Assembly (NCBI GenBank): GCA_963169875.1
Contig: CAUJEL010000164.1
Coordinates: 1-52,930 of the forward strand
Source of the DNA: Candidatus Zhuqueibacterota bacterium
GTDB lineage: Bacteria; Zhuqueibacterota; Zhuqueibacteria; Residuimicrobiales; Residuimicrobiaceae
DNA length: 52,930 nucleotides
Reading direction: 5' to 3'
Numbering within the stretch: position 1 is the first letter of the stretch; each line of letters opens with the position of its first letter. Of the stretch, positions 908 through 52,930 are shown piece after piece. The notes under the pieces were generated by a model. That model worked only from the letters and a program-made list of their open reading frames with translations. It ran no database searches and had not been told where the DNA came from. The position numbers and the translations under genes were made by a program.

Positions 908-1921
908 TCAAAAACCAATCCCGTCGATCTCCGCCGCACAGACCGGACAGCGTCCTGCCACCATCTTGTCATGGAGCACCTCAAATCCAATACGCTCGAT
1001 GAGCAGAGCGCCGCAGCGGTAACAGAAGGTATGCTCTCCCACATCCCCGGGCGCATTGCCGCAATAGACATAGCGCAAACCTTCCTCAATCCCGATCTCC
1101 CGGCCGCGGCGCAGCACGGTCAACGATGTGGGCGGCAGCGCGCCCAGCCGATATTGCGGATAGAACCGGCTGATGTGCCACGGCGTCTCCACGCCGAGAT
1201 GCTCCCTGATGTATGCGGCAATGGATCGTAACGTGTTCTCATCATCGCAATACCCGGGCACCAGCAGCGTGGTGACTTCCACCCAAATCCCCAATTTTTT
1301 CATCAACTGCAGGGTATCCAGAACCGGCTGCAGCGAGCCGCCCACCACCTTGCGATAGAACGCATCATCCCACCCCTTCAGATCCACATTGGCAGCCGTC
1401 AGGAACGGCGCGATCTCCTGCAACGGCGCCGCATTAATGTAGCCATTGGTCACCCACACCGTTCCCAATCCCTGGGCATGGGCCGTACGCGCAATATCCA
1501 GGGCCCATTCGTAATAGACCGTGGGTTCGGTGTAGGTGCAGGCGATGGTGCGGCAGTCCGATGCCAGGGCCTGATCAACGACGTCCGCAGCGGTCAGCGC
1601 ACGCCCTGGCAGCCGGCTATATGAAGCGCGGATTTGCGAAATCTCATGATTCTGGCAGAACTGGCAGTGAAAATTGCACCCCGCCGCCGCAACGGAAAAA
1701 GAACGCGAACCGGGATGGACATGATAGAGCGGCTTTTTTTCGATGGGATCGACATGCAATGCGATGGCCTGATTATACGTCAACGCCTGCAGCGTGCCGC
1801 CCTGATTCTGACGCACTCCGCAGACGCCAAGCTGGTCATCGGCAATGATGCATTCGTGGGGACAAAGATGGCACTGCACCTTGTGTCCATCAAGTGTGGT
1901 GTAAAAACGGGCAGGGATCAT
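908..1921 (-). CDS. amrS: AmmeMemoRadiSam-type radical SAM enzyme (PflA-like)
   Basis: A 337-residue radical SAM protein. The CX3CX2C cluster motif is C82-NFH-C86-QF-C89, followed by QN as in PflA-like activases. Extra Cys pairs occur near the N-terminus (CHLCPHEC around residues 17-24, then C34), and a C-terminal CxxC...CxxC ribbon lies around residues 298-330. This arrangement is typical of the AmrS family, formerly named pyruvate formate-lyase activating-like, which usually sits beside AMMECR1 and Memo genes. Neither partner is present here. The start ATG overlaps the stop of the upstream lipoprotein gene by 4 bp (ATGA), so the two are probably translationally coupled. The family's reaction is still poorly defined. 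Product family is confident, physiological substrate unknown. Confidence 0.9.
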   Translation of the reverse strand: MIPARFYTTLDGHKVQCHLCPHECIIADDQLGVCGVRQNQGGTLQALTYNQAIALHVDPIEKKPLYHVHPGSRSFSVAAAGCNFHCQFCQNHEISQIRASYSRLPGRALTAADVVDQALASDCRTIACTYTEPTVYYEWALDIARTAHAQGLGTVWVTNGYINAAPLQEIAPFLTAANVDLKGWDDAFYRKVVGGSLQPVLDTLQLMKKLGIWVEVTTLLVPGYCDDENTLRSIAAYIREHLGVETPWHISRFYPQYRLGALPPTSLTVLRRGREIGIEEGLRYVYCGNAPGDVGEHTFCYRCGALLIERIGFEVLHDKMVAGRCPVCAAEIDGIGF

Positions 1922-4035
1922 GGCGTATCCTCATCGCTTTCTTTAACGCGCAGCGTCATCTCCAACAGCGCCTGGATGCGAAAGTAATCATTGAGATAGA
2001 CGCGCGCCTTTTGCCCGCCGGTTCCGTCCAGTTTCACCACGTAACGAAAATATATCGTCTTTTCATGTTGTCCCTCGTTATAAAACAGGGCCATCGATGT
2101 CTCATTGATGGAGGTCGCCAGGCGCTGCGACCGCGCACCGGTGACGGTGCCGGCAGCATTGACTGGTGCGGCTTCGATGCGTAGCGGACCTACCGCCAAG
2201 TCCGGCTGCGCCGCCAATTTGGACGAGTCGGTGCCAAAATGGATAAAAAGCGAGCCGCCCACGGGGAGATGGTTTTCGATCTCGGCCGCCACGGAGACAG
2301 CGCGCATGTGACGTGTTGCATCACCAGCCAGAACAACCACATCGTCCGCTTCATCAAACGCATCACCCTCCTGGTTCTCCGGGGCAATACGCAGTTGCGA
2401 AATGTCCCCCTCAATGCTGCGCTTTTCCCATTTGAGATCCACCGGAATATCCAGAACAAACCGGCCGCGGACATAATCCGTCGAGGTCACCTGACCGAGC
2501 GTCATGCCATCGCCGACGGTGATGTAGCCGCCGGCCGCCAGCTTGGTGGGCTGCAGGTTGATGAACGGAACGATGGAACTATTTTGACTGGTGAAAAGCG
2601 GCAGGACGGTGGCTCTTTCCTGTCCCGGATCGGGCGGGGCGATGAGGACATTGAACGGGAAAAGCGCGGACTCGCCGCGGTCATTAAAGCCATAAAGCGC
2701 GCCATGAAATTCGATGGGCATTTCGATGGTGTTATAAAGGGTCACCTGCATGCGCGCATCATTCACCGTGACGCCGTCCAGCGTGCCCCACTCTTCGCTG
2801 ACGGTCACGTTCTGCACCGTGCTATCCAGCTCCACGGTGCGCGCTTCCAGCCTGCCCCGGAAATGATCCAGCACCATGTGGTCCATGTCCAGTGACAGGA
2901 TAATTTTATTTTCCGCGCCCAGGGTAATGTACTGACTGCGCAGATCGGCAGTTTGCGCTGCGATTGAAACGTGCATTTGTTGCGGTGAGCCCGCTTGCGG
3001 CACATCGAGATGAATGGCGTACGCGGCGAGATTCACGTCCAGAATTTGCGTCGCGAATGGCTGCATCGCCACTTTCAATTGCAGCGGCAGGCCGGAGTCT
3101 TTGTGCCTGATCTCATCAAACTGGATGGAGATACCGGGGCTGGCAAAGGGCGTGCGGTTGTCGATGGACAATCGGAATCGCCCCCCCCTGAACTCAAGAT
3201 CGGCGATGGCATTTTTTCCACTTTTATCGATCACCATGGTCTCGGCATGATCGATGGTCAGGGCGGGTATGCGCGCTTCGACGCTGGAAATGCTGAAGCT
3301 GCGCAGTTCGGATACAACATCCACGGACCGCGTCCCATCAATGGCGATCTGGCCGCCGCGGCTGCCCTGGGAATTCCCGCTCAACAGCCAGCGGCTCTGC
3401 GGGGGGAAACTTTTCCCGGCCATGTCGACCTCGACGATGGCGGAATCGTCCGCAGCCACCAACCGCAGCAGTGGCGACGTGACGACAATCGCCGAGGTGG
3501 CGGGATCCTGAAGCGATAAAATGATATTTTCAAGGGGAACCGGCAGACGATTATAGATGTGCAGCCAGGCGACACCCGAAGTCAGTGTGGCGAAAAGCAG
3601 ATCTTCGCTGGCATGAAAAGCGCCTGTGACGCGGTTGAAGGTAAAGGGCGCTATGGTGCCTGTGGTGCCATTTTTGCTGACCGCTTCCGCTGAAAGCTGC
3701 GACCACAGGAAGCGGTCAGCCACCACCGGAATGTTCGGAATCGTCAATGCATCCAGACCGATGTTGACCGTCTCGTGAATTTCGGGAAAAGTGAGGTAAT
3801 CCTTGACATAGGAGGTATCCAACGCCTGTTCGAAATGGAAAGCGAGCAGGCCGTCTGTGCCAGCGGTCAGATGGTCATCCCCGCGGATCAATTCCTCGAT
3901 GGAATAGATGTGATCGGTCAGGGGCACGCGCAGGGTGGTATCCCAGCTGGGCGCTTTGGGGGATTCCAGGGAGCAGGACAACCACATCAGGCTAAAAGCG
4001 GGCAACCAGGCTGCCGCACAGATATATTTTTTCAT
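1918..4035 (-). CDS. Large beta-rich lipoprotein of unknown function
   Basis: A 705-residue protein beginning with a lysine-led signal peptide and a lipobox ending LSC at about residue 21, so it should be lipidated and anchored in an envelope membrane. The mature part is long, rich in alternating hydrophobic/polar strands, Gly, Asp and Thr, and has no transmembrane helix or catalytic motif that I recognise. Several segments look like repeated beta-sandwich strands. It ends four bases into amrS, so the pair is likely co-expressed. The ATG start fits the signal peptide; no convincing Shine-Dalgarno is visible beyond a weak purine run. Not assigned to a named family. Confidence 0.8.
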   Translation of the reverse strand: MKKYICAAAWLPAFSLMWLSCSLESPKAPSWDTTLRVPLTDHIYSIEELIRGDDHLTAGTDGLLAFHFEQALDTSYVKDYLTFPEIHETVNIGLDALTIPNIPVVADRFLWSQLSAEAVSKNGTTGTIAPFTFNRVTGAFHASEDLLFATLTSGVAWLHIYNRLPVPLENIILSLQDPATSAIVVTSPLLRLVAADDSAIVEVDMAGKSFPPQSRWLLSGNSQGSRGGQIAIDGTRSVDVVSELRSFSISSVEARIPALTIDHAETMVIDKSGKNAIADLEFRGGRFRLSIDNRTPFASPGISIQFDEIRHKDSGLPLQLKVAMQPFATQILDVNLAAYAIHLDVPQAGSPQQMHVSIAAQTADLRSQYITLGAENKIILSLDMDHMVLDHFRGRLEARTVELDSTVQNVTVSEEWGTLDGVTVNDARMQVTLYNTIEMPIEFHGALYGFNDRGESALFPFNVLIAPPDPGQERATVLPLFTSQNSSIVPFINLQPTKLAAGGYITVGDGMTLGQVTSTDYVRGRFVLDIPVDLKWEKRSIEGDISQLRIAPENQEGDAFDEADDVVVLAGDATRHMRAVSVAAEIENHLPVGGSLFIHFGTDSSKLAAQPDLAVGPLRIEAAPVNAAGTVTGARSQRLATSINETSMALFYNEGQHEKTIYFRYVVKLDGTGGQKARVYLNDYFRIQALLEMTLRVKESDEDTP

Positions 4036-4145
4036 TTCACCATCCAGAAATCGCCAATTTATTCATAAGCCAATTCTAAAAACCTTAACCAGGACTTGAA
4101 AGAATTGTTTTATATTTAGTTTGATTTTTTTATTCGTATACCAGG

Positions 4146-4319
4146 CCTGAATGATTCACCGCCGAGGTCGCAGAGGTACGCAAAGAAAAGAAAAACATAA
4201 AGATGGCTTTTACAAAAACTTTGATGACTGAGATCAAATCAAATCGAATAAATTTTGATCATTGTAATAAAAATCGCTCGGCTGCCTCGGCGCACTCGGC
4301 GGTTTATGAATCGAACAGG
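4146..4319 (-). repeat. Dispersed intergenic element, copy A
   Basis: Read on the minus strand this begins CCTGTTCGATTCATAAACC, passes through ATCTCAGTCAT in an AT-rich centre, and ends with GTTTTTCTTTTCTTTGCG and a CTCTGCG...CGGCGGTGAAT block. The same blocks occur in the same order at 39325-39510 and 42211-42386. The two ends are imperfect inverted repeats of each other (CCGCCGAGTGCGCCGAGG against CCGCCGAGGTCGCAGAGG). There is no coding capacity. It lies between the lipoprotein gene start and the dehydrogenase gene end. The structure resembles a MITE or REP-like element. Confidence 0.85.
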
Positions 4320-4461
4320 ATCGTGAAATTGGCCGTTATTAGAGTGGACTCATTTATAATTACCAACACAACAAAGTCATCGCCGAAAATAAATTCATAC
4401 CTCTCAAGTTACAGCTTTTATACTTCCGCGGCCGTGATCCAGAACACCAGTCCGCACTTTG

Positions 4462-4581
4462 AAAGGCGCCCTGCTTGTGAGGGGTGCCTTTGACATACAC
4501 ACGGCGATCCTGTTTCAACCGATCCTGATCGGGACATTTACCGGCTTTGAGGGTGTCTCTGACATTCCCGCGGCGATCCCC
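4462..4581. repeat. Hairpin plus degenerate 70-bp tandem duplication
   Basis: The segment TGAGGGGTGCCTTTGACAT, followed by a GGCGATCC block, at 4478-4512 recurs at 4548-4581 as TGAGGGTGTCTCTGACAT with the same GGCGATCC block, offset 70 bp. The first copy also closes a 10-bp stem: AAAGGCGCCC at 4462-4471 with GGGTGCCTTT at 4482-4491, one G-T pair. It lies immediately downstream of the dehydrogenase stop. No T tract follows on either strand, so I do not call it an intrinsic terminator. Confidence 0.55.
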
Positions 4582-4594
4582 TTGGGACAGCGCA

Positions 4595-5479
4595 CTAGTG
4601 CATATTGCCGAGGCGCTGCAGGGATTTGATAAGGGCCTGGGTGCCTTCGCGGCCTTCGCCGTGGGCCTGACAGCCGTTGAAAAGTTGCGCCACCAGCGCC
4701 AGCGCAGGGGACGGCAATTTCATCTCCCGCGCCGCCTCCAAAGCCAGAGCGAGGTCTTTCTGTTGCAGATCGATCATGAATCCGGGCGCAAAATCGCTGG
4801 CCACCATGCGCGGGCCGAGGTTGTTGAGCTGCCACGACCCGGCGGCGCCGTTTTTAACCGCCTCGATCATGATATTGGCATCCACGCCCGCGCGGCGCGC
4901 GAACTGAACGGCCTCACACACGGCCAGGTTGTTGACCGATACCAGAATCTGATTGCATAATTTAACCGTCTGGCCCATGCCATGGCCGCCCACCAGGGTC
5001 ATGGACTTGCCCAGGGCGCGAAAAACCGGCAGGCAGCGCTCGAATACCTCGGCTTTGCCGCCGGCCATGATCGCCAGCGTTCCCGCCTTGGCGCCTGTAT
5101 CGCCGCCGCTCACGGGCGCATCGAGCATGTCGCCGCCTTGCTTTTCGATCTCCAGCGCCAGCCGCCGCGTCACCGAGGGCGAAATGGTGCTCATATCGAT
5201 GACCACGGCGCCGGGACGCAGGCCTTGCAGTACACCTTCCGACCCTGCAATGACGTCGACAACGTCTGGCGAATCGGTCACCATGGTGATGATGATTTCG
5301 CTCTTCTCAGCCACTTCGCGGGGAGAATAAGCGCGCGCGGCACCCGCGGCAACGGCGGCCTCTGTTTTGCTGGTCGTACGATTATAAACAGTCACAGGAA
5401 ATCCCGCCTTGAGCAGGTTCATCACCATCGGCTGCCCCATGATGCCCAGGCCGATAAATCCAAGTTGAGTCGCTTGCAT
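4595..5479 (-). CDS. Beta-hydroxyacid dehydrogenase (3-hydroxyisobutyrate / tartronate-semialdehyde reductase family)
   Basis: A 294-residue NAD(P)-dependent enzyme. The Rossmann signature GFIGLGIMGQPM is at residues ~7-18. The substrate-binding DAPVSGG motif is near residue 120 and the catalytic lysine lies in GQTVKLCNQ near residue 170. Length and motifs match 3-hydroxyisobutyrate dehydrogenase and 2-hydroxy-3-oxopropionate reductase; the sequence alone does not choose between them, and related GLYR1-type succinic semialdehyde reductases are also possible. I chose the ATG at 5479 rather than an upstream in-frame TTG because a GGAGAG Shine-Dalgarno precedes it. It follows a small lipoprotein gene after an 18-bp gap and may share its transcript. 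Confidence 0.92.
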   Translation of the reverse strand: MQATQLGFIGLGIMGQPMVMNLLKAGFPVTVYNRTTSKTEAAVAAGAARAYSPREVAEKSEIIITMVTDSPDVVDVIAGSEGVLQGLRPGAVVIDMSTISPSVTRRLALEIEKQGGDMLDAPVSGGDTGAKAGTLAIMAGGKAEVFERCLPVFRALGKSMTLVGGHGMGQTVKLCNQILVSVNNLAVCEAVQFARRAGVDANIMIEAVKNGAAGSWQLNNLGPRMVASDFAPGFMIDLQQKDLALALEAAREMKLPSPALALVAQLFNGCQAHGEGREGTQALIKSLQRLGNMH

Positions 5480-51380: not shown

Positions 51381-51763
51381 GCGCCCTCCCGGTCGATGTC
51401 ATCCAGGTATTGGCGCAACTGCTCGATCTCTTCACTTGAAGGTTGATGATTGCCCAGGGCCTGCAACACCAGATTCATCGTCGAACCGGAAAAGGCCGCC
51501 TGCACCAGCTTGTGCACCAGCCGGTTTTGCACCTGATCCTGTTTCAACAAGGGCCGGTAAACGTGACTGCGCTGATCCTCCACCCGCGCCAACAGATGCT
51601 TCTGCGCCATGAGCTGCATCATCTTGAGCGTGGTGGTATAACCCACCTCACGAATGGACTGCAACTGCTCATTGACAAAACGAACGGTTGAGGGACCGTG
51701 TCGCCACAGTATCTGCAAAATTTCCAGTTCCGCTTCGGTTGGATCCGGTTTTTTCTCTGCCAT
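51377..51763 (-). CDS. BlaI/MecI-family transcriptional repressor
   Basis: A 128-residue winged-helix protein: TEAELEILQILWRHGPSTVRFVNEQL, then YTTTLKMMQLMAQKHLL as the recognition helix region, RSHVYRPL as the wing and a C-terminal dimerisation helix bundle. BlaI-type repressors bind palindromes as dimers and are cleaved when the partner M56 protease fires. Two perfect palindromes lie upstream, so it very likely represses itself and the M56 gene. AAAGGA precedes the ATG. Confidence 0.94.
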   Translation of the reverse strand: MAEKKPDPTEAELEILQILWRHGPSTVRFVNEQLQSIREVGYTTTLKMMQLMAQKHLLARVEDQRSHVYRPLLKQDQVQNRLVHKLVQAAFSGSTMNLVLQALGNHQPSSEEIEQLRQYLDDIDREGA

Positions 51764-51804
51764 AACACATCCTTTACATTTTGGGTACCCATATCAATAA
51801 ACGA

Positions 51805-51833
51805 AGTATATTACGAAATGTTTCGTAGTTTCT
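51805..51833 (-). promoter_or_regulatory. Putative promoter of the blaI-M56 operon
   Basis: On the minus strand TATACT (51805-51810) is a good -10; 17 bp upstream is AGAAAC, a poor -35. Operator 1 fills the spacer exactly, so a bound repressor would exclude RNA polymerase. Confidence 0.45.
51812..51827. promoter_or_regulatory. BlaI-type operator 1 (TACGAAA-TG-TTTCGTA)
   Basis: A perfect 7+7 palindrome with a two-base centre, 49 bp upstream of the blaI start codon. Its centre is exactly 30 bp from that of operator 2, about three helical turns, so two repressor dimers would bind the same face of the DNA. Confidence 0.85.
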
Positions 51834-51840
51834 GCTTTTT

Positions 51841-51858
51841 CTACGAAATTTTTCGTAG
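51841..51858. promoter_or_regulatory. BlaI-type operator 2 (CTACGAAA-TT-TTTCGTAG)
   Basis: A perfect 8+8 palindrome sharing the TACGAAA half-site with operator 1. It lies between the blaI promoter and a rightward promoter, so it could regulate both. Confidence 0.85.
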
Positions 51859-51871
51859 TTTTTCATTTTGC

Positions 51872-51900
51872 TTGACATTGACCGGAGTTACCATTATTTT
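51872..51900 (+). promoter_or_regulatory. Sigma70-like promoter facing right, next to the BlaI operators
   Basis: TTGACA at 51872-51877 and TATTTT at 51895-51900 with 17-bp spacing. It starts 14 bp beyond operator 2 and points to the pirin gene at 52192, giving a leader of ~285 bases. The rest of the leader (51901-52180) shows nothing I can support. Confidence 0.45.
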
Positions 51901-52191
51901 TAGAAAAGAAATATGCTGCTGCATCATCATTCAATGATTGACATTGTCGGCTACCCCGGTGTACTGGACTGTTTTCGCTGGATCGTATCGGGCCGGTGAA
52001 GCACAAACCCGAAAAATGCGCCACCCGCTGGTGACAGGTTCATCATGATAATGGATTATGTGCTGATTCATAACTCGGCCTGTCATCTTGAATTTTACCG
52101 GTTCATCAGCAGGAGCATCGCGGTGGTCAATCCAAACCTTGTTTTATAACGTGTGCGTGCAGTAGTTACTCACCTTTTATGAGGAAATGCG

Positions 52192-52930
52192 ATGAATCTG
52201 CGCACGATAGATACCCTGTACGCCAGCGTCCCGACGCTGGAAGGCGCCGGCGTCCGGCTGCAGCGCGTGTTTGGTTATTACCAGTCGCCGCAAATGGATC
52301 CTTTCCTGCTGCTGGACCATTTTGGCTCCACAAATCCTGATGAGTATCTGGCGGGGTTTCCCTGGCACCCGCACCGCGGCATCGAGACCGTCACCTATGT
52401 CCTCTCCGGCAGTGTCGAGCACGGCGACAGCCTCGGCAACCAGGGCGTGATCAACGGCGGCGATGTCCAGTGGATGACCGCCGGCAGTGGCATCATCCAT
52501 CAGGAGATGCCGCAGCGCGTGGAGCTGCCCCTCAACGGATTCCAGCTCTGGGTGAATTTGCCGCGCTCCCACAAGATGATGATTCCGCGGTATAATGAGA
52601 TCATCCATGAACAAATTCCGGAAATTGAAGTGGCGGATAAGGTCCGCATAAAAATCGTCAGCGGCACTGTGGACGGCCAAGCCGGCCCCATGCGCGATCT
52701 CGTCGTCGACACCGAATACCTCGATGTCGAAATTGCCGGCCCGGCGACATGGACGCATCCCATCCCGGCGGGATTCAGCGCCTTCGCGTATGTCTATGAT
52801 GGCGAAGCGCAATTTGGCACGGCGCTGGTGAAGAAGTATCACTGCGCAAAATTTTCGCAGCAAGGGGATGCGGTAGAAGTCCGGGTTGAAAAAGGTCCGA
52901 GCCGTTTTCTCCTCGTCTCCGGGAAGCCCT
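52192..52930 (+). CDS. Pirin family protein (3' end outside window)
   Basis: 246 codons are visible before the window ends. The N-terminal cupin shows HPHRGIETVTYVLSGSVEHGD and GDVQWMTAGSGIIHQEMP, which supply the three His and one Glu metal ligands of pirins; the second cupin half follows from about residue 180. Bacterial pirins bind iron and some have quercetin dioxygenase activity; others modulate metabolism through protein contacts. GAGGA six bases before the ATG sets the start. A BlaI-linked promoter lies upstream. A long minus-strand frame across the same bases is its antisense shadow. Confidence 0.93.
   Translation, partial: MNLRTIDTLYASVPTLEGAGVRLQRVFGYYQSPQMDPFLLLDHFGSTNPDEYLAGFPWHPHRGIETVTYVLSGSVEHGDSLGNQGVINGGDVQWMTAGSGIIHQEMPQRVELPLNGFQLWVNLPRSHKMMIPRYNEIIHEQIPEIEVADKVRIKIVSGTVDGQAGPMRDLVVDTEYLDVEIAGPATWTHPIPAGFSAFAYVYDGEAQFGTALVKKYHCAKFSQQGDAVEVRVEKGPSRFLLVSGKP

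Follow-up and report, generated by a model that had tools for sequence, protein, structure and literature searches.

A 52,930-nucleotide stretch of DNA from Candidatus Zhuqueibacterota, which was analysed as a whole and is termed the window, carries two perfect palindromes before a blaI-type gene, and this locus raises the question of which regulator the palindromes serve and how their half-site relates to that of the bla and mec systems. A sequence-only reading had taken them for BlaI operators, an assignment that gains support from their linkage to blaI and from covariation across relatives; the two palindromes are very probably the autoregulatory operators of the operon's own BlaI-type repressor.

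The proximal palindrome, TACGAAATGTTTCGTA, and the distal one, TACGAAATTTTTCGTA, both match TACGAAA-NN-TTTCGTA perfectly, and the previously noted centre-to-centre distance of exactly 30 bp was confirmed at the positions given in Table 1. The distal palindrome is the fuller one and can be written as CTACGAAA-NN-TTTCGTAG (8+8). A first-order Markov model built from the window predicts 4.6e-5 perfect sites for the window itself and 0.004 across 5.0 Mb, while two were observed, which is far above expectation, and the perfect palindromes are not due to chance. At up to three mismatches the window holds only two other matches, each with three, against a shuffle mean of 1.22.

Table 1. Features of the blaI-M56 operon and its control region, in window coordinates
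Feature	Position	Strand	Remarks
Proximal operator (candidate; operator 1 of the sequence-only reading)	51812..51827		perfect palindrome; ACGAA-4-TTCGT core recurs in relatives
Distal operator (candidate)	51842..51857		perfect palindrome, centred 30 bp farther upstream than the proximal operator
BlaI/MecI-family repressor, 128 aa	51377..51763	-	Pfam PF03965, 95.6 bits against a cut-off of 22.6
M56 (BlaR1-type) membrane metallopeptidase, 563 aa	49689..51380	-	PF05569, 92.8 bits against a cut-off of 31, residues 105-299
AAAGGA, likely ribosome-binding site of blaI	51770..51775	-	six bases before ATG, read in the sequence
-10-like TAATAT at the edge of the proximal operator, overlapping its end	51808..51813	-	hexamer read in the sequence
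Alternative -10-like TATACT	51805..51810	-	hexamer read in the sequence
Promoter-like TTGACA-17-TATTTT toward the pirin gene	51872..51900	+	10 of 12 consensus matches

The blaI start lies 48 bp downstream of the proximal palindrome, and in the assembly, which is 95.6% complete, no other protein than its product matched PF03965. This repressor aligns without gaps to the penicillinase repressor (PDB chain 1sd4, residues 3-125) and to MecI chains, and its recognition helix, GYTTTLKMMQLM (residues 41-52), contains Leu46-Lys47. The start of the M56 gene overlaps the blaI stop (ATGA), and since the left neighbour is a convergent CNNM/CorC-type gene and the right neighbour a divergent pirin gene, the operon has two genes. 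The M56 translation harbors HEAAH and EYCCD motifs, which fit the zinc protease signature HEXXH and EXXXD given for BlaR1/MecR1 in the available portion of PMC9834060. Neither a PBP nor a beta-lactamase domain was found in this protein, where no Pfam match at E values up to 0.1 appeared past residue 314, and NCBIfam blaR1_generic scored 88.8 bits, below its cut-off of 400. The closest relative of the repressor (L127) also has an M56 neighbour, and because good alignment with that protein extends only over residues 18-300, the ectodomain has diverged; in another relative (L131, 1550-3220), the C-terminus of the M56 partner weakly resembles an STN domain (secretin/TonB short domain), scoring below the cut-off, and the ectodomains of these peptidases look interchangeable. 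In a genome of the same family, a stretch at L126 (G002:C94:7000-10500, 1607-1834, plus strand) encodes no more than the N-terminal ~35 residues of a BlaI resembling that of the window, with 61% identity over residues 3-35, followed by unrelated sequence; this is a gene remnant, and that relative seems to have lost the system.

The proximal operator had also been placed within the -35/-10 spacer of the operon promoter, and this claim stood only in its -10 half: the operator is adjoined by a -10-like hexamer that lacks a convincing -35 partner, the best TTGACA match reaching 3 of 6 at spacers of 15-19 and the promoter scan being empty on the minus strand. Across the 30 proximal sites of relatives examined, the mean match to TATAAT peaks (3.27 of 6) at the offset of the -10-like hexamer in the window. 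The operator does lie within the -35/-10 spacer in L080, L083 and L091, where TTGACA is followed after 17 bp by TATATT, TATCAT and TATAAT, respectively, and the promoter TTGACA-17-TATATT is found between the two sites of L019; TTGACA at that -35 place is not general among the proximal sites of relatives.

Searching the 5.0-Mb assembly for TACGAAA-NN-TTTCGTA, which had been suggested as a way of defining the regulon, returned perfect sites, two in all, only at the operon's own blaI promoter; no site in the assembly has a single mismatch, and nine have two mismatches. These nine appear to be background, because the reversed control pattern matched more often at up to two mismatches (32 versus 11), and six of them fall within ORFs by a mechanical ORF call; the three outside ORFs include sites before a groES-like ORF (L010) and before a 479-aa ORF (L009), both of which are read as probable chance matches. 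A wider regulon within this genome was considered and rejected, as only the operon's own promoter has sites with zero or one mismatch, and the sites point to the blaI-M56 operon alone as the regulon in the window's genome. Across its own phylum, the strict operator pair occurs in one of 82 genomes, that of the window, while in the nearest relative (L019) a distance of 55 bp separates the two sites, L020 has two sites with one mismatch each and L021 a single clear site. Three relatives each have one perfect site (L013-L015); of these genomes, G005 is devoid of a BlaI match and G024 and G047 carry other helix classes, and the three sites look like background.

The relation between the recognition helix and the half-site was surveyed in 85 BlaI genes, each read together with as much as 300 bp of preceding DNA, comprising the 37 own-phylum loci that were returned, 43 Planctomycetota places and L016, L017, L075, L076 and L077; for the Staphylococcus locus (L077), the blaZ-blaR1 intergenic stretch was used in place of the stretch before blaI. 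A search of genome contigs had contributed only two distant relatives. Helix residues were numbered after the window protein by alignment, and genes were grouped by Leu46-Lys47 and then by Lys47. A site within one mismatch of ACGAA-4-TTCGT was found upstream of 27 of the 34 Lys47 genes and of none of the other 51 (Fisher 4.9e-16, a value that ignores relatedness and the fact that the grouping was picked after looking at part of the same data). Among the Lys47 genes, the best match was perfect in 25, had one mismatch in two and two mismatches in seven, whereas the other genes never came closer than two mismatches, which 11 of them reached. Grouping by Leu46-Lys47 alone gave 26/32 against 1/53, the exception being L134 (Ala46-Lys47), and once the near-identical genes L093-L095 and L101-L103 were collapsed, 23 of 30 Lys47 genes had a site. 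The reversed control pattern occurred within one mismatch in 2/34 and 0/51 genes, respectively, and TTACA-2-TGTAA within one mismatch was found upstream of none of the 34 Lys47 genes. Two or three sites stand upstream in 24 of the 34, a recurrent layout that suggests cooperative binding.

Six of the seven Lys47 misses were read as having related sites upstream, the seven being L080 with TACGAC, L130 with TACGAT, L140 with TACGAT paired with GTCGTA, L099 with GCGAA, L076 (Met43-Ser44) with TAAGAAA, L131 with a 5-bp centre and L091 with an imperfect TACGAA site. Other helices tend to go with other repeats: ACTAC-3-GTAGT occurs within one mismatch in 5 of 13 Lys46-Thr47 genes and ACTAC-4-GTAGT in 6 of 16 Gln46-Thr47 genes, each being found in 0/34 Lys47 genes. 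A tree built without the helix columns did not reject a single Lys47 clade (p-AU 0.324); the Lys47 counts are not independent and may rest on few origins, because the Lys47 proteins may form one clade. In view of this tree, the idea that L134, which has a perfect site, acquired its Lys47 separately was not retained.

Fourteen further BlaI genes were kept apart, and a prediction, set at 80% for Lys47 genes, was fixed before their reading. It was borne out in 6 of 12 Lys47 genes, below the forecast; the successes were five of the six Leu-Lys genes and L177 (Arg-Lys, one mismatch), and neither of the two non-Lys47 genes had a site. One miss (L164) was of the TACGAC type seen in L080, with which it shares Lys51, and the other five were Val46-Lys47 proteins. 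GCGAA-4-TTCGC is perfect in all six Val46-Lys47 genes, namely these five and L099 of the first set, so that the class was defined with one gene known beforehand and five from the held-out set. Each of the six has two or three perfect copies, those of L174 being far upstream (-246 and -219), and in the first set the 84 genes apart from L099 all lack the pattern at up to one mismatch. Attempts to widen the sample gave no match in 10 genomes of the phylum of G097, taken as a third phylum, and no further Bacteroidota when plasmids were searched with the Spirosoma protein.

The linkage was also approached blind to genes, by searching 294 genomes of Planctomycetota, the phylum to which L016 (Fuerstiella) belongs, for two sites 18-44 bp apart. 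Paired sites were present in 16 genomes, with zero for the reversed control, and all 16 belong to the 34 genomes with a related BlaI (E 1e-25; hypergeometric 2e-17); 25 of these 34 have a Lys47 gene, and all pair-bearing genomes fall within the 25. By coordinates, 16 of the 17 distinct paired places lie directly upstream of the related blaI. In viral contigs, the paired motif occurred in 18 stretches, and an HMM search within each stretch found BlaI in 0/18, the HMM having recovered its two positive controls, both from its own training set. The motif pair as a diagnostic of BlaI by itself is ruled out by this count. The worry that the palindrome might be widespread with no link to regulation was accordingly dispelled for the window's own genome and, through the 16 of 17 pairs before BlaI, for Planctomycetota, but it kept some force for the viral pairs.

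That both sites would lie on one helix face, as the sequence-only reading had it, is supported by the clustering of spacings. The 28 adjacent spacings of the Lys47 set gave a vector length of 0.816 at a period of 10.5 bp, which none of 20,000 uniform draws reached. The 21 gene-blind spacings (20 from Planctomycetota and one from the window's own phylum) all measure 21-23, 29-33 or 42 bp, with a vector length of 0.845. Such draws assume an independence that relatives violate; once three near copies were dropped, the length was 0.828. Spacings of 53-55 bp were also found (L019, L087 and L134). The held-out spacings were 54, 41, 41, 29 and 35 bp, of which 41 and 54 are outside the stated bins and near whole turns, while 35 is out of phase; in the GCGAA class they range over 21-33 bp and include 25 and 27. 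The phasing is a preference with exceptions, because the held-out 35 as well as 25 and 27 fall out of line. Of the viral spacings with no accompanying BlaI, 13/18 are in 21-23 or 29-33, so neither the motif nor its phasing is peculiar to BlaI. With 10.5 bp to the helical turn, the 30 bp of the window amount to 2.9 turns, which is near one face and not exactly on it.

The viral pairs bring up another explanation, whereby the sites belong to a different regulator such as a phage-type repressor and stand next to blaI by coincidence. It draws on the ACGAA-4-TTCGT pairs of the 18 viral contigs, among which L150, L151 and L161-L163 show TACGAA-type palindrome pairs 30-32 bp apart in stretches with no BlaI, and on L150 in particular, whose pair is flanked on both sides by short ORFs that were read as helix-turn-helix-like. 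The viral pairs are possibly convergent phage operators. Coincidence is nevertheless highly improbable for the window, given that the pairs track the related BlaI through the 294 genomes (16/16 genomes, 16/17 places) and that the half-site changes along with the helix.

An arrangement in which one palindrome alone is the working blaI operator, with the distal one serving a divergent plus-strand promoter and no cooperative unit being formed, has more in its favour and is still rather unlikely. A 10-of-12 promoter-like match starts 14 bp beyond the distal operator on the plus strand, and L021 offers a relative with a single clear site; yet the Lys47 genes as a rule have two or three sites before them (24/34), and the promoter-like match is near the shuffle background, a scan of 51700-52250 finding two such sites against a mean of 1.0. 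It is scarcely credible that the palindromes work at the RNA level, as hairpins or a terminator, instead of as DNA operators. The terminator scan does score the distal palindrome as a terminator-like hairpin on the plus strand, but this score is read as a by-product of the palindrome; in relatives the central bases and outer flanks vary while both half-sites are kept, and the sites come in two or three copies with clustered spacings, an arrangement for which an RNA structure has no need.

With paired BlaI operators retained as the preferred reading, the window can be compared with characterized systems. Like the staphylococcal BlaI-BlaR1 and MecI-MecR1 systems, it combines a PF03965 repressor, an M56 partner and repeated palindromes, and the bla pair of Staphylococcus condimenti is 31 bp apart versus 30 bp here. 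The half-site is another matter: the staphylococcal systems have TTACA/TGTAA and Arg-Thr at helix positions 46-47, whereas the window has CGAA and Leu-Lys. The earlier remark that TACGAAA is unlike the mec and bla half-sites held against both the Staphylococcus bla locus (TTACA-2-TGTAA) and the TACA/TGTA core of the published consensus in the accessible sections of PMC5341023, a core that the window half-site lacks; the same sections place the recognition helix of Macrococcus MecI at Ser41-Asn56. In further contrast with bla and mec, no PBP-type sensor domain was found in the window, and no beta-lactamase or PBP gene adjoins the operon. CopY/CopR repressors are likewise related, and the pneumococcal cop promoter has two operators, though their consensus, RNYKACANNYGTMRNY, has an ACA core and CopY bears C-terminal Cys-X-Cys motifs, while the window repressor has no cysteine in its 128 residues; TACGAAA itself occurs in pneumococcus flanking a site to which CopY did not bind (cop data from the consulted portions of PMC7253601).

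A third comparison is offered by a Paraburkholderia caribensis plasmid (L075), on which a blaI-M56-class A beta-lactamase operon has the same repressor-M56 gene order and a BlaI 45.6% identical over residues 8-120. Unlike in the window, its helix is TYASVLRQMQVM (Arg47) and its best match to ACGAA-4-TTCGT has three mismatches. Its M56 protein (3354-5111) ends in a D-Ala-D-Ala carboxypeptidase domain (PF00768, S11), with the class A beta-lactamase gene next, and is apparently a BlaR1-like sensor built from a different PBP family. No description of a CGAA-type BlaI operator was found among the matches listed from the open-licence PMC literature on such operators, and the window pair is an operator-specificity variant within the known bla/mec-type repressor and peptidase families.

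In the mechanism proposed for the window, two repressor dimers would bind about three helical turns apart on roughly one face, at the beginning of the blaI-M56 operon and immediately before it, thereby bringing about autorepression; with both sites filled, the repressor would occlude the -10 region and keep RNA polymerase out. The M56 protease would sense a signal via its C-terminal ectodomain and presumably inactivate the repressor, by which the operon would be released as in the BlaR1-BlaI pair. BlaR1 is described in the available portion of PMC9834060 as cleaving BlaI directly between Asn101 and Phe102; in an ungapped alignment, the scissile Asn-Phe of S. aureus BlaI corresponds to Gln101-Ala102 of the window repressor, and since Gln-Ala stands there the M56 partner may cut at another bond. 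The CGAA half-site, in place of the ACA core of mec, bla and cop, is most likely attributable to Leu46-Lys47 as opposed to, for example, Arg46-Thr47. The overall explanation, which builds on the sites, their uniqueness in the assembly, the blaI linkage, the spacing clusters and the helix covariation, and which adds binding, repression, cleavage and a signal as proposed steps, is held with high confidence on these comparative grounds.

A broader proposal, which is considered reasonably probable, is that a recognition code operates in the BlaI superfamily, whereby residues 46-47, tuned by neighbouring positions such as 41, 43-44 and 50-51, would set the half-site. Lys47 would specify a CGA(A) core, with Leu46 giving ACGAA and Val46 (together with Asn/Ser41 and Ser43) giving GCGAA; Lys51 would lead to ACGAC (two genes) and Met43-Ser44 to AAGAA (one gene), while Lys46-Thr47 and Gln46-Thr47 would favour ACTAC sites that differ in their centres. 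The strongest support for such a code is that distinct helix subclasses carry distinct, internally consistent half-sites. BlaI-type repressors with membrane protease partners occur in many of the searched genomes, and the textbook TACA/TGTA operator would miss the CGAA subgroup. The helix-to-operator correspondence yields testable predictions for regulons and orthogonal repressors: if the code is true, the operators and regulons of many unstudied BlaI-M56 pairs would be predictable from sequence, and mutually orthogonal repressors could be selected.

Two further observations were made among the Planctomycetota and other relatives. Upstream of L104, L106, L107, L175 and L176, Planctomycetota genes with helices such as YTSVMS, YTTIMS and YTSILS, there are repeats of the TACGG, TACTG or TACTA type, which are read as putative further specificity classes. 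The 17th paired place of the gene-blind search (L112, G303:C3:205298-205333) is an operator pair before a PQQ-propeller gene (PF13360), and a propeller gene adjoining blaI in G075 (L128, 1-1140) is 27% identical to it, which hints at a PQQ-propeller gene as a possible common target.
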